Assembly: GCF_000284295.1 (NCBI RefSeq)
Contig: NC_017093.1
Location: 62,001 to 126,000, forward strand
DNA from: Actinoplanes missouriensis 431
GTDB taxonomy: Bacteria > Actinomycetota > Actinomycetes > Mycobacteriales > Micromonosporaceae
DNA length: 64,000 bases
Direction: 5' to 3'
Numbering within the stretch: position 1 is the first letter of the stretch; every line of letters starts with the position of its first letter. The notes beneath the pieces are model-generated. The model was not told where the DNA came from, did not search any database, and saw nothing but the letters and a program-made list of their open reading frames with translations. The position numbers and the translations under genes were made by a program. Below, piece after piece: positions 2-12,905 of this stretch.

Positions 2-1078
2 CTCTCCGAGCTCTTCACGCCGATCGTGGAGCCGCTGGCGGGCTCGGCGACCGGCACCGTGACGCACATCTGCGCGCTGGTCGGGGCCACCCTCTTCTCG
101 ATGCTCTTCGGTGAGCTGGTCCCGAAGAACGCGGCGCTGGCCCGCCCGATGCGGCTCGCGCTGCTCACGTCCGGGCCACTGCACGGTTTCTCCACGCTCT
201 TCAAATGGCTGATCGCCGCCCTCAACGGGACGGCGAACTGGCTGGTCCGCCGCCTCGGCATCGAGCCGCAGGAGGAGCTGGCGAGCGCTCGTTCCCCGGA
301 GGAACTGGGTCTGCTCGCCGCGATCAGCGCACAGGCCGGGGCGCTGCCCGACGAGACCGCGACGCTGCTGCGCCGGACCATCCGCTTCGGCGAGAAACGC
401 GCCGCCAAGGCGATGACCCCGCGCGTCGACGTGGTCGGCCTGAAGACCACGGCCAGCATCGCTGACCTGATCACGGTGGCTCAGCAGACCGGGCACACCC
501 GCTTTCCGGTGTACGAGGAGACGCTCGACGTGGTCATCGGGGTGGTCGGCGTGAACGAGGCGATCGGGGTCCCGCCCGAGCGCCGCGCCGCGATCAAGGT
601 CGCGGCGGTCGCGAAGGAGCCGGTCTACGTCCCGGAGAGCCTCGGCCTGGACAAGGTCCTGGAGGCCCTGCGCGCCGCCGACGCCGACCTGGCGATCGTG
701 GTCGACGAGTACGGCGGCACCGACGGCGTCGTGACGGTCGAGGACCTGATCGAGGAGCTGGTCGGTGAGATCGCCGACGAGTACGACACCGACCTCGACG
801 AGACCGGCAGCCAGGAGTTGACCGCGCCCGGCGGCGAGAAGACGTTCCTGGTCGACGGGCTGCTCCGCGAGGACGAGGTGCTGGAACAGACCCGGTTCCG
901 CCTGCCCGAGGGGCCGTACGAGACCCTGGCCGGCTTCCTCCTGGCCCGCCTCGGGCACATCCCGGTGGTCGGGGAGTCGCTGGAGGAGGACGGGTGGGAG
1001 TTCACCGTGATGGAGGTCGACAGGCACCGCATCGAGCAGGTGCGTGTCGTCGCCCCACCGGAGCCGTCCGATGACTGA
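2..1078 (+). CDS. CNNM/CBS-domain (HlyC/CorC-type) transporter, 5'-truncated
   Basis: The reading frame is open from base 2, so the true start lies upstream of the window; the GTG at 26 is only an internal codon. What remains is the end of the CNNM transmembrane domain (hydrophobic segment followed by GELVPKN, a hallmark of the family), a CBS pair beginning near AAKAMTPRVDVVGL, the DEYGGTDGVVTVEDLIEEL signature of the second CBS, and a CorC_HlyC C-terminal domain (VDGLLREDEV...). The family is linked to Mg2+/Co2+ efflux or homeostasis across the plasma membrane; a hemolysin role is historical naming. The stop overlaps the start of the next gene by 8 nt, indicating translational coupling of two paralogues. 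Confidence 0.9.
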   Translation, partial: LSELFTPIVEPLAGSATGTVTHICALVGATLFSMLFGELVPKNAALARPMRLALLTSGPLHGFSTLFKWLIAALNGTANWLVRRLGIEPQEELASARSPEELGLLAAISAQAGALPDETATLLRRTIRFGEKRAAKAMTPRVDVVGLKTTASIADLITVAQQTGHTRFPVYEETLDVVIGVVGVNEAIGVPPERRAAIKVAAVAKEPVYVPESLGLDKVLEALRAADADLAIVVDEYGGTDGVVTVEDLIEELVGEIADEYDTDLDETGSQELTAPGGEKTFLVDGLLREDEVLEQTRFRLPEGPYETLAGFLLARLGHIPVVGESLEEDGWEFTVMEVDRHRIEQVRVVAPPEPSDD

Positions 1079-8045: not shown

Positions 8046-9902
8046 ATGACGCACTACAAGAGCAACCTTCGGGACCTCCAGTTCAACCTGTTCGAGGTCT
8101 TCGGAGCCGAGAAGTCGCTCGGCCAGGCGCCGTTCGACGAGTTCGACCTGGAGAGCGCGCGCGACGTGCTCGCGGAGGTCGACCGGCTGGCCCGCGAGGA
8201 TCTCGCCGCCAGCTACGCCGACGCGGACCGCAACCCACCGGTCTTCGACCCGGCGACGCACACCGCGCCGCTGCCGGAGTCCTTCAAGAAGTCCTACGAG
8301 ACCTTCATGGCGTCCGAGTTCTGGCGGCTCGACCTGCCGTCCGCCCTCGGTGGCACCCCGGCGCCGCGCAGCCTCGTGTGGGCCGTCGCCGAGCAGATCC
8401 TCGGTGCGAACGCCCCGATCTGGATGTACTCGTCCGGTCCCTCCTTCGCCCACGTGGCCTTTGTCGAGGGCACCGACGAGCAGAAGGAGTGGGCCAAGCT
8501 CTTCGTCGAGAAGCAGTGGGGCTCGACGATGGTGCTCACCGAGCCGGACGCCGGCTCGGACGTGGGTGCCGGCCGCACCCGCGCCATCCCGCAGCCGGAC
8601 GGCTCGTGGCACATCGAGGGCGTCAAGCGCTTCATCACCTCGGGTGAGCACGACCTGACGGACAACATCATCCACTACGTGCTGGCACGCCCGGTGGGCG
8701 TCGAGGGCGTCGGCGGGCCCGGCACCAAGGGCCTCTCGCTCTTCATCGTGCCGAAGTACCACTTCGACCCGGCGACCGGCGAGCTCGGCGAGCGCAACGG
8801 CATCTACGCCACCAACGTCGAGCACAAGATGGGGATCAAGGTCTCCAACACGTGTGAGATGACCTTCGGCGAGCACGGCACCCCGGCCAAGGGCTGGCTG
8901 CTCGGCGAGGTGCACCAGGGCATCCGGCAGATGTTCATGATCATCGAGAACGCCCGGATGATGGTCGGCACGAAGGCGATCGCGACCCTGTCGACGGGTT
9001 ACCTCAACGCGCTGGAGTACGCGAAGAACCGCGTACAGGGCGCTGACCTGGTGCAGAACGGCGACAAGGCCGCGCCGCGCGTCACCATCACCCACCACCC
9101 GGACGTACGCCGCTCCCTGCTGCTGCAGAAGTCGTATGCCGAGGCCCTGCGTGCCCTGGTCATCTACACCGCGACCTGGCAGGACAAGATCGCCATCGCG
9201 CAGGCCGCCGGTGACGAGAAGACCGCCAAGATCGCCAGCAAGATCAATGACTTCCTGCTGCCGCTCGTCAAGGGCGTCGGCTCGGAGCGGGCGTACGAGC
9301 TGCTCGGCCATGAGTCGCTGCAGACCTTCGGTGGCTCCGGCTTCCTGCAGGACTACCCGCTCGAGCAGTACGTGCGGGACGCGAAGATCGACACCCTGTA
9401 CGAGGGCACCACCGCGATCCAGAGCCTCGACCTGATCTTCCGCAAGATCGTCAAGGACAACGGCCGGGCGCTCGGCACGATCGCCGCGGAGATCCAGGGC
9501 TTCGTCGAGAGCGAGGCCGGCAACGGCCAGCTCAAGGAGGAGCGGCTGGCGCTCGGCAAGGCGCTCGGCGAGATGCAGCAGATCCTCGGCACCACGCTGG
9601 GCTGGCTGCAGGAGGTCCAGGGCGGCCAGGCCCGGGAGCTCTACAAGATCGGCCTGAGCTCGCGCCGGATCCTGCTCGCCCTCGGCGACGTCGTGCTCGC
9701 CTGGCTGCTGCTGCGCCAGGCCGAGGTGGCGCTGAACGCGCTGAACACCGAGGTGTCGGAGGCGGACAAGGCGTTCTACACCGGCAAGGTTGCGGCGGCC
9801 CGCTTCTTCGTCCGCGAGATCCTGCCGCGCATCGGCGCCGACCGTCGCATCATCGAGAACACCAACCTCGACGTCATGGACCTTCCCGAGGAAGCGTTCT
9901 GA
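8046..9902 (+). CDS. Acyl-CoA dehydrogenase (long, 618-residue FadE/DmdC-like class)
   Basis: 618 residues, longer than the usual 380, as expected for the class with an extended N-terminus and an additional C-terminal acyl-CoA dehydrogenase domain. Visible features: [16 protein letters not shown], the FAD/substrate strand [24 protein letters not shown] in the middle beta domain, and the helical domain with [34 protein letters not shown], the flavin-binding and catalytic-base segment. It catalyses FAD-dependent alpha,beta-dehydrogenation of an acyl-CoA, passing electrons to ETF; chain length is not evident. Starts at ATG 8046, is monocistronic, and has two inverted repeats upstream and a strong terminator downstream. 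Confidence 0.93.
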
Positions 9903-9970: not shown

Positions 9971-9984
9971 GTTACCGGGCCGGC

Positions 9985-10109
9985 AAGACATCCGGGTATG
10001 TGCTGAAAGTCAACACCAAGAAGCAGAAAAGACCATGAAGGTACGGGTTCGGGTCTACGACAAGCTTGCGAATGTCACCACCACGACGACCAGGACCTGG
10101 CGTCGCTGA
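9985..10109 (+). pseudogene. Decayed duplicate of the 3' end of the adjacent subtilase-like gene
   Basis: This stretch reads KTSGYVLKVNTKKQK, then after a one-base deletion near 10030 MKVRVRVYDKLANVTTTTTR, then TWRR and a stop at 10107-10109. It matches codon by codon the last 41 residues of the subtilase-like protein encoded downstream (DNA 12250-12379). Third-base changes between the copies and the frameshift show it is an old copy under no selection. There is no start codon or domain upstream: the acyl-CoA dehydrogenase terminator directly precedes it. It is best explained as the remnant of a second tandem subtilase-like gene whose body was deleted. Confidence 0.85.
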
Positions 10110-10159: not shown

Positions 10160-12379
10160 GTGCCATCGTTGCGTACCGTTTCGTTATCTCTTGCCGCCGT
10201 TCTGCTGGCCGGAGTGTCCGCCACAGCGGCGACACCGGCGGTAGCGGCGCCGTCCGACAGACCCTGGCTGGGGTACACCATCGGCCTCCAGCCGAACGTC
10301 AAGCCGTTGGAGCTGCTCAAGCGGCTCGACATCCAGCCTTCTGGGGCTTTGGAGTGGGTCACCGGGCTTAACGCCGTCTCGGGTGGCCTCTTCTATGAAG
10401 GGCACTACTCCTCGGTTCTGACGAAGCTGCAGGCCGATCCGGATGTCCGCTTCGCGGAGCTCATGGCCTTCACCGACTCGAACGAGTCGTACTGGAACCC
10501 GTTGACCGGCCGCGAGCTGGACACCGTCCAGCTGCCGCACGGCAAGACCGGTACCGAGGACGTCACCGTCGCGGTGCTCAACACCGGTGTCACGCCGAAC
10601 CGGGACCTGCCGGAGAGCCGGCTGGTACCCGGCTTCAACACGCTCGATCTGCCGTTCGTCGGTCATGAGGACCTCCCTCGTCAGGGGAGGAGCACCAAGG
10701 ACGACGGCGGCTTCGGGACGATGACGGCGGGGATCATCGCCGGCGACTCGGGCATCTGCCCGAGCTGCAAGATCATGCCGGTGAAGGTCTCCTTCGCGGA
10801 CCCGGGCCGGGTCACCGGATCGGCCTCCGATCTCGCCGCCGGCATCGTCTGGGCGACTGATCACGGCGCCGACGTCATCACGACGCCTGCCGTGGTGGAC
10901 CGCGAGAGCAAGCTTCTCGCCGAGGCGATTCAGTACGCCCTGAACGAGAAAGTGCTGGTCGTCGCGTCGGCCGGCAAGGACATCTATGACGGCCGCCAGG
11001 TCCAGCCGGCGGCTACCGAGCAGGTGCTGTCGGTCAGCGCCGTCGACACGTCGGGCCGGGTCACCGGACGCTACGGCTCCAACACCGGTGGCAGCCGCTG
11101 GATCGACGTGGCCGCGGCCGAGGGTGCACCCGCGGTCAACCACCTCGGCGCGTCGTCTCAGCTCGACGGCGTGGAGGGGGCCACCGCAGTGGTGGCCGGC
11201 ACCGCCGCCCTGGCTTTCTCGATGCAGCCCGGAGTGAAAGCCGACGAGGTGCGGCAGTCGATCGTGGACACCGCGATCCCCGCCGGTCTGCCGGTCCTGA
11301 ACGCCGGCCGCGCTGTCCACAAGGTGGCCGGCAACGACACCGCCGACCCGGAGATCACCTCGACCGGCCTCACCGCCAACCAGTTGATCTCGAAGCCGAT
11401 CGACGTCCGCCCGGTGGCGACCGACGACTACGGCATCGTGCTCACCGAGTTGACGGCCGGCGGCAAGACGGTCACGACGCGGAGCCCGTGGGAGACGCTG
11501 CGGTTCACCCCGCCGGCCGGCTTCTCCGGCGACCTCGCCGTGTCGCTGCGCGTCACCGACGTCGCGGGCAAGACCGCCGGGGCGACCACGGTCGTCAAGG
11601 TCGACACGGTCGGCCCGACCGGCAGCTTCGTCTCGCCGGCCGCCGGCGCACGCGTCCGGGGCGCGGCGAAGGTGGTGTTCCGCGGTTCGGCGGACGTCGC
11701 CTCCGCCAAGGTCAACGGCGTGGCGATGAAGAAGTCCGGCGCCGACTGGACGGCCAGCGCGACGCCGAACCGCGGAAACCTCGTGGTCGAGGCGGCCGAC
11801 CAGTACGGCAACGTCAGCCGGTTCACCCGTGCCGTCGTGGTCGACAACGACGGGCCGACCGCCACCGCTGTGAACCCGAAGCAGAACACCCGGGTCCGTG
11901 GCACGTTCACCACCTCGCTGAGCGGTGTGAAGGACGCTTCCGGAGTGGCCAAGGCCGAGCTGTGGGCGAACGGCAAGTACCTGGGCGCGGGCTACTCCAA
12001 GAAGGTTGCGACAGGTAAGTCCAGCGGCAACGTCAAGCTGGTCTGGAAGCTGACCGACAAGCTGGGCAACTCCCGCTCGTACACCCGGATTGTGATCGCC
12101 GACAACAAGGCGCCGAGCGTGTCGATCACCAAGGCCCCGAAGAACAAGGCCAAGGTGAAGGGCACGGTCAAGGTCTCGGTGAAGGCCTCCGATGCCTCCG
12201 GCATCGCGCGGGTCGAGCTGATCGTGAACGGCAAGGTGGTCGCGACGGACAAGACCTCCGGGTACGTCCTGAGCGTCAACACCAAGAAGCAGAAGAAGTC
12301 GATGCAGGTGCGGGTCCGGGCTTACGACAAGCTCGGCAACGTCACCTACACGACGACCCGCACCTGGTACCGCAAGTAG
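10160..12379 (+). CDS. Secreted subtilase-fold (S8) pseudoprotease with C-terminal Ig-like domains
   Basis: 739 residues from GTG 10160, which starts right at a clean signal peptide (PSLRTVSLSLAAVLLAGVSA, cleavage near PAVAA); the ATG at 10121 lies inside a likely -10 box. Residues about 35-105 resemble an inhibitor I9-type propeptide, then an S8 fold follows. Every catalytic position is changed: the Asp motif reads AVLNTGV (Asn, codon 10580), the His motif GFGTMTAGIIAG (Phe, codon 10712), the oxyanion Asn region VVASAGKD (Lys, codon 10976) and the Ser motif LDGVEGATAVVAG (Glu, codon 11174). The fold remains intact around these sites, so it should be inactive, perhaps a binding or structural protein. 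The C-terminal 340 residues form about three bacterial Ig-like repeats, each ending near a D-K/Q-x-G-N motif. Confidence 0.85.
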   Translation: MPSLRTVSLSLAAVLLAGVSATAATPAVAAPSDRPWLGYTIGLQPNVKPLELLKRLDIQPSGALEWVTGLNAVSGGLFYEGHYSSVLTKLQADPDVRFAELMAFTDSNESYWNPLTGRELDTVQLPHGKTGTEDVTVAVLNTGVTPNRDLPESRLVPGFNTLDLPFVGHEDLPRQGRSTKDDGGFGTMTAGIIAGDSGICPSCKIMPVKVSFADPGRVTGSASDLAAGIVWATDHGADVITTPAVVDRESKLLAEAIQYALNEKVLVVASAGKDIYDGRQVQPAATEQVLSVSAVDTSGRVTGRYGSNTGGSRWIDVAAAEGAPAVNHLGASSQLDGVEGATAVVAGTAALAFSMQPGVKADEVRQSIVDTAIPAGLPVLNAGRAVHKVAGNDTADPEITSTGLTANQLISKPIDVRPVATDDYGIVLTELTAGGKTVTTRSPWETLRFTPPAGFSGDLAVSLRVTDVAGKTAGATTVVKVDTVGPTGSFVSPAAGARVRGAAKVVFRGSADVASAKVNGVAMKKSGADWTASATPNRGNLVVEAADQYGNVSRFTRAVVVDNDGPTATAVNPKQNTRVRGTFTTSLSGVKDASGVAKAELWANGKYLGAGYSKKVATGKSSGNVKLVWKLTDKLGNSRSYTRIVIADNKAPSVSITKAPKNKAKVKGTVKVSVKASDASGIARVELIVNGKVVATDKTSGYVLSVNTKKQKKSMQVRVRAYDKLGNVTYTTTRTWYRK

Positions 12380-12386
12380 GACCGGT

Positions 12387-12905
12387 TCAGCCCCGGGCGG
12401 TGTGCCGGCGGAGCAGGCGCATCGCCCCGGGTTCGACCGATGACCACGGTTTCTCGCCGCTGTGCACGGCGATCCCGGAGGTCTTGATCTCCACGACCGT
12501 GCCTTGGAACTGGTCGTCCGGCAGCATCAGCGCGGACACTTCGGACATCGTCGGGTTGTGGCCGACGATCAGGACCGTCCGGACCGTGTCGGGGACCGCG
12601 CGGAGCAGGTCGAACACCTCGGTGCGGCCACCCTCGTAAAGACCCTCTTCATACCGGACCTCGGGCGCGCCGTGCGGGTGCTCGCCCTGCACCAGCGCGA
12701 TCGAGGCGGCCTGCCAGGTCTGCCGGGTGCGTTTCGCCGGCGAGCAGAGGACCAGGTCCGGGTGCAGCCGGGCGTCGGCCAGCCAGGCGCCCGCGGCGTC
12801 CGCGTCGGACTCCCCGCGATCGGTGAGTGCGCGGTCGAAGTCGTCGAGGTCGCCGGGCGTCTCAGCCTTGGCGTGGCGCAGCAGGATCAGCGTTCGCGTG
12901 GTCAT
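12387..12905 (-). CDS. SixA-type histidine phosphatase
   Basis: 172 residues from ATG 12905. Histidine phosphatase superfamily: LILLRHAKAETPGDLDDFDR holds the RHG-type catalytic His; DLVLCSPAKRTRQTW and TVLIVGHNPTMSEVSALML provide the second Arg and second catalytic His. The closest family is SixA phosphohistidine phosphatase, which dephosphorylates His on phosphotransfer proteins; actinobacterial members often have unknown targets. A longer in-frame ORF reaching 13190 is not supported because homologues begin with the MTTRTLILLRHAKA segment. It is convergent with the subtilase-like gene (7 nt apart). Confidence 0.88.
   Translation of the reverse strand: MTTRTLILLRHAKAETPGDLDDFDRALTDRGESDADAAGAWLADARLHPDLVLCSPAKRTRQTWQAASIALVQGEHPHGAPEVRYEEGLYEGGRTEVFDLLRAVPDTVRTVLIVGHNPTMSEVSALMLPDDQFQGTVVEIKTSGIAVHSGEKPWSSVEPGAMRLLRRHTARG

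Follow-up and report, generated by a model that had tools for sequence, protein, structure and literature searches.

The gene at 10169..12379 on the plus strand of a 64,000-nucleotide stretch of the Actinoplanes missouriensis 431 genome (the window; NC_017093.1, positions 62,001 to 126,000, from a single contig of 8,773,466 bases) encodes a subtilase of family S8 in which all four catalytic positions have been replaced. Judging from the sequence together with a structural model, we give about an even chance (roughly 0.5) to the reading that its product is a secreted pseudoprotease, frozen as a zymogen, with a non-catalytic binding or structural role. Since close relatives share most of the loss and the locus is prone to turnover, the job of the protein is probably binding rather than cutting.

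The codons AAC at 10580, TTC at 10712, AAG at 10976 and GAG at 11174 encode N141, F185, K273 and E339 (numbering counts from the GTG at 10160), and in the S8 alignment these residues fall on the Asp, His, oxyanion Asn and Ser positions, respectively. The protein thus has Asn-Phe-Glu instead of the Asp-His-Ser triad and Lys273 instead of the oxyanion-hole Asn. An earlier note on this DNA had named these four substitutions at the same codons, and translation together with the S8 alignment confirmed all of them. The replaced and newly fixed positions, in which "dead clade" refers to the group of catalytically dead relatives described below, are as follows.

10580..10582, plus strand: Asp position, now Asn141, private to the window protein
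10712..10714, plus strand: His position, now Phe185; Phe, Tyr, Ala or Arg in the clade
10880..10885, plus strand: Thr241-Thr242, invariant in the dead clade; Thr241 stands for an Asn of the comparison proteins
10976..10978, plus strand: oxyanion Asn position, now Lys273; Lys, Glu, Gln or Thr in the clade
11120..11143, plus strand: Glu321 to His328, EGxPAxxH (x at 323 mostly Ala), with Glu321, Pro324 and His328 invariant in the dead clade
11174..11176, plus strand: Ser nucleophile, now Glu339, invariant across the dead clade

A protein search that scored 7998 candidates gave 253 relatives, of which the best 120 are listed, and P0003-P0009 were 60-85% identical to the window protein. In the order Asp/His/Asn/Ser, a MAFFT alignment of the S8 domains reads NFKE in the window protein, DFEE in P0003 (which at 85% identity retains the Asp), DYKE in P0004 and P0005, DFQE in P0006, DFKE in P0007 (copy 3 of genome G065), GATE in P0008, GRTE in P0009 (genome G047) and DYKE in the G057 copy. 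A BLAST reading of the four sites deviates from these letters in a few rows with shifted loops, and two oxyanion letters, in G065 and G045, are uncertain. P0004 is recorded as A. missouriensis and is only 72% identical to the window protein, so its name or strain must differ. Ser->Glu, as well as loss of the His and of the oxyanion Asn, is found in 9 of 9 clade members, and Asp->Asn in the window protein only (1/9). Of the 94 other S8 proteins listed from the same query (P0028-P0121), 90 carry D-H-N-S; the remaining four are two with the Asp column empty and two whose oxyanion loop is shifted. Chance or sequencing error is excluded because the clade shares its losses while those 90 proteins read D-H-N-S; a sequencing or assembly artefact would have to recur in independent records carrying the same substitutions, and we regard its probability as negligible.

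In a tree of 55 rows (14 of 69 were left out as duplicates or remote S8 proteins) the nine dead rows form one clade with support 100/100, and its sister is a G065 gene reading D-H-N-E (95/95). The simplest order of loss suggested by this topology is Ser->Glu first, then the His and the oxyanion Asn, with Asp->Asn in the window lineage. A second, separate dead group, likewise one clade at 100/100, comprises G056 (GHNP), G063 (GNSS), the Ser->Ala copy of G065 and the Ser->Val copy of G045, the last two being those with uncertain oxyanion letters. Further losses occur in P0022 (Ser->His) and in P0026 (Ser->Asp and Asn->Tyr, on a long branch).

The gene was laid out as follows.

10169..12379, plus strand: pseudo-subtilase coding sequence, with the TTG start of public record P0002; the alternative start is the GTG at 10160
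10169..10249, plus strand: putative signal peptide (MRTVSLSLAAVLLAGVSATAATPAVAA), a by-eye reading
10265..10480, plus strand: propeptide-like domain, residues 36-107, modelled like uncleaved pro-subtilisin
10550..11329, plus strand: S8 subtilase domain without catalytic residues, residues 131-390, from Pfam, alignment and model
11330..12376, plus strand: C-terminal immunoglobulin-like (Ig) domains with two Big_7 stretches, the last two thirds being the best conserved part

No stop interrupts the frame between a point upstream of 10121 and the TAG at 12377-12379, and the TTG at 10169 is probably the true start. Pfam matched Peptidase_S8 with an E-value of 1.2e-22 (81 bits against a cut-off of 21.8) and Big_7 at the C-terminus in two stretches (E-value 2.1e-21), and its scan of the window protein gave no propeptide match. 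The earlier note had proposed comparing a predicted structure with subtilisin, and a subtilisin-like fold was indeed predicted: the model covers 35..387 on 3whi_A, and complete subtilisins, about 275 residues long, align with its residues 114-390. The profile match and this fold place the protein in S8 (PF00082) by descent. C200 and C203 form a CxxC motif (window 10757-10768) that is conserved in S8-Ig relatives with or without the triad and possibly makes a disulfide.

The model places the propeptide and the S8 domain as in uncleaved pro-subtilisin, with the propeptide docked in cis. That a dead enzyme should keep its propeptide had been called odd; it is not, because the Clostridioides difficile protein CspC, which has lost its triad, likewise keeps its prodomain unprocessed (PMC6636752). 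With regard to the substrate groove, the residue before the SLGG-like strand is Asn in 37/37 comparison proteins and Thr in 9/9 dead ones. The strand with the SLGG motif belongs to the substrate groove, and the altered groove position weighs against a peptide binder using the old groove. Hence, from the suggestion that the gene encodes a secreted pseudoprotease, perhaps a peptide binder, the pseudoprotease with its signal-peptide-like start stands and binding through the old groove loses ground. As far as model and sequence can tell, the protein would fit the description of a pseudoprotease as a selectively maintained protease fold that has lost its catalytic residues.

For the estimates of omega, a pairwise codon model was purpose-written. 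In five of the six dead-clade pairs omega for the S8 domain was 0.145-0.228, the sixth being saturated, and omega = 1 was rejected in all six (2dlnL, twice the log-likelihood difference, 49-84). The values were 0.058-0.126 for the Ig region (6/6 dead-clade pairs) and 0.150-0.265 for the propeptide (3/3 pairs). If the tree is right, all divergence within the dead clade is younger than the shared loss of the Ser. Of 81 positions that 80% or more of 37 triad-intact proteins have in common, at least 7 of the 9 dead proteins retain 56. Eight positions survive in at most one dead protein, among them the His, the Ser and the Asn that precedes the substrate strand. In addition, 14 residues that are rare elsewhere have become fixed in the dead clade (e.g. 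T241, T242, E321, H328 and E339).

A second explanation, which we judge somewhat unlikely, is slow decay, whereby the Ig tail is useful and the S8 domain is a folding-only passenger that is being lost as in Ig-only genes. Several observations favour it or weigh against a maintained pseudoprotease. Active S8 pairs with t below 2 (5/13) gave omega 0.124-0.249 and are therefore not clearly different from the dead clade; the other 8/13, all with t above 3, are saturated or nearly so and gave 0.007-0.049, and four of six pairs in the second dead group, as well as several active pairs, lay at the upper bound of t. NG86 ratios of nonsynonymous to synonymous change (dN/dS), which disregard codon bias, came to 0.63-0.80 for the dead clade; two active sets gave 0.37-0.60. 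Mean identity in the dead clade was 0.43 for the propeptide, 0.64 for S8 and 0.86 for the Big_7 tail, compared with 0.56, 0.60 and 0.67 in seven active relatives; relative to the tail, S8 and propeptide thus vary far more in the dead clade. The G057 orthologue is broken by a stop at about residue 80 and a change of frame at about residues 371-377, which makes one broken copy among the four clade members with DNA examined. Relics in five genomes, S8-less genes in G016 and G057 and an Ig-only cluster at 375-382 kb of the bacterium's own genome fit decay too. Against it stand an S8 omega well under 1 after the shared loss, the 14 clade-invariant residues uncommon elsewhere and the eight open frames on record. 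The pseudoprotease clade is maintained under purifying selection, though probably with relaxed constraint: the constraint is real yet appears relaxed relative to the tail, and the Ig part would be the most constrained element. The claim that the protein is maintained rather than debris holds as regards purifying selection, with the caveats of one broken copy in four and five genomes with relics only.

The fixed residues admit two further interpretations. The old active site may have been rebuilt as a conserved acidic pocket for a ligand or partner (Glu339, Glu321, His328 and Thr241-Thr242), which would make the clade a genus-specific receptor or surface-assembly protein derived from a protease, and the locus a pseudoprotease nursery; we consider this elaboration unlikely. 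Isopeptide bonds occur in pilin-type Ig domains, and Asp/Asn141, Lys273 and Glu339 could make up a charge cluster or such a bond, that is, new chemistry or a covalent link. Glu339, Glu321 and His328 are clade-invariant and Lys273 occurs in five of nine members (window, P0004, P0005, P0007/G065 and G057), but the remaining four have Glu, Gln or Thr in place of the Lys and two members have Gly in place of the Asp, which leaves this interpretation very improbable.

The surroundings of the gene are consistent with a history of gene loss and gain, and they contain the following features.

8046..9902, plus strand: left flank and syntenic anchor, presumably acyl-CoA dehydrogenase-like (named from its sequence)
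9981..10109, plus strand: remnant of a lost paralogue immediately upstream of the pseudo-subtilase gene, consisting of its 3' end, which matches the window gene's own 3' end with 82% identity over 118 columns
12400..12890, minus strand: right flank and syntenic anchor, which we take to be a SixA-like histidine phosphatase (named from its motif)

The left-flank gene is present in 67/67 genomes of the genus that were searched, and its downstream side was examined in all; the flanking gene order is the same in G065, G057 and G045. The gap between the left flank and the SixA-like gene measures only 24-224 bases in 44 genomes, holds S8-Ig genes in 14 (18 genes, a duplicated G042 contig being counted once) and holds tail sequence but no S8 in six; the right flank was not found within the piece examined in two (G058 and G022), and one (G039) has an unrelated long frame. 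One or more triad residues are missing from eight of the 18 S8 genes, and the broken G057 copy is among these eight; the other ten are triad-intact, five of these also keeping the oxyanion Asn. Among the six tail-only loci, that of G016 is an open frame with a signal-peptide-like start and Ig domains, and the other five (G029, G015, G019, G021 and G052) look like relics. An Ig-only frame of 441 residues from stop to stop lies upstream of the broken dead copy in G057, a triad-intact gene in G009 has no 5' part (the match begins at residue 93, with a stop ahead of it), and G047, whose gap is empty, carries its dead gene elsewhere. Taken together, the sequences indicate that the locus is a birth-and-death site where S8-Ig genes appear, become inactive and are lost.

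G065 (L075, 6867-18646) has, between these same two flanks, a tandem run of five S8-Ig genes that differ in catalytic state, in the order Ser->Ala, D-H-N-E, D-F-K-E and then two D-H-N-S. Genes with an intact triad and the oxyanion Asn replaced by Gln, His or Asp were also seen (L024, L025, L029 and the locus genes of G004, G009, G061, G042 and G007), and these are possible reduced-activity enzymes.

Such mixed arrays bear on a regulatory role, in which the dead copy binds or tunes an active S8 paralogue by analogy with what has been proposed for CspC/CspA and CspB. Dead and triad-intact copies adjoin in G065, and the own genome holds two D-H-N-S proteins with the window protein's tail, at 738 kb and 2.12 Mb. 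There are precedents (PMC6636752 and PMC12880746), and a reported malaria propeptide-like inhibitor of a subtilase indicates that inhibition in trans is possible (PMC6993865). However, no active paralogue adjoins the window gene in its own genome, the propeptide is modelled as docked in cis and is the least conserved domain, and in C. difficile it was CspA, not CspB, that co-purified with CspC (PMC12880746). A regulatory role therefore seems distinctly unlikely.

Under the pseudoprotease reading, the gene would have arisen by tandem duplication of an S8-Ig protease in the turnover-prone gap and lost Ser to Glu first, the His and the oxyanion Asn next and, in the window lineage, Asp to Asn last. 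After export the propeptide would help the S8 domain to fold and, as that domain would be unable to cut it off, would stay attached. The inert domain may then serve as a binding or structural module, presented on the Ig-like domains at the surface of the cell, spore or sporangium.

A search of 354 Micromonosporaceae genomes, in which the best three candidates per genome were scored, gave matches at E <= 1e-110 in 19 genomes, all belonging to one of 44 genera. Homologues sharing the substitutions, for which the earlier note had proposed a test across the family, exist as one fully supported clade, and this search speaks against a family-wide distribution. A contig scan gave 26 loci whose best segments were 26-37% identical, and none of them is therefore a clade member. 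The own genome has 16 Pfam S8 matches; the 15 scored at the catalytic sites (L160 was left out) comprise 12 D-H-N-S proteins, the window gene, one S-T-D-G protein and one degenerate remote match. The S-T-D-G protein (L165, G000:C1:1466275-1466991) is a second dead subtilase, with a C-terminal hydrophobic segment, and is presumably mycosin-like. The Ig-only cluster (L002, L004, L006, L008 and L010, G000:C1 375.6-382.5 kb) encodes proteins with signal-peptide-like starts that share the window protein's tail. A TcrA-box pattern had no match across the window.

To our knowledge, a role is known for only a few dead subtilases of bacteria, among them CspA and CspC of C. difficile. Bacterial pseudoproteases as a kind are already known; we found no description of the clade or locus in the open-licence literature (papers without supplements), where no title or abstract dealt with this gene family, and the main texts of PMC12691653, PMC13251363 and PMC10733313 contain neither 'protease' nor 'subtilisin'. 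One syntenic gap in one genus holds active-looking, half-dead, fully dead, S8-less, relic and empty states as well as a five-gene array, so the succession of catalytic losses and what becomes of the dead domain can be tested directly. Mutants can be made in A. missouriensis 431, and life-cycle RNA-Seq is public (DRA012687, as given in PMC10733313).

By analogy, the closest precedent for the window protein is C. difficile CspC/CspA. PMC6636752 and PMC12880746 describe the same subtilase fold without a working triad, an uncleaved CspC prodomain, an active relative (CspB) and a part for the dead CspA and CspC in germinant signalling. The Csp proteins differ in their role in spore germination, in having lost two catalytic residues (CspA and CspC) and in a jelly-roll insertion of about 130 residues within the subtilase domain (PMC6636752), for which our model leaves no room; the window protein is therefore not filed as a Csp protein. 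What it has instead is an Ig tail, a start resembling a signal peptide and replacements at four positions, and it is most closely related to active S8-Ig proteins of Actinoplanes. As to a Csp-like mode of action, the docked propeptide appears in the model only, and triad-intact paralogues adjoin in G065 and not in the window. From the secreted S8 proteases subtilisin, fervidolysin and Tk-subtilisin it differs in lacking the triad and the oxyanion Asn and in its changed substrate strand. The triad-intact Actinoplanes S8-Ig proteins (P0010, P0016 and the G066 and G048 locus genes) share its architecture at 41-45% identity and differ by their intact D-H-N-S; those of G066 and G048 occupy the same locus.
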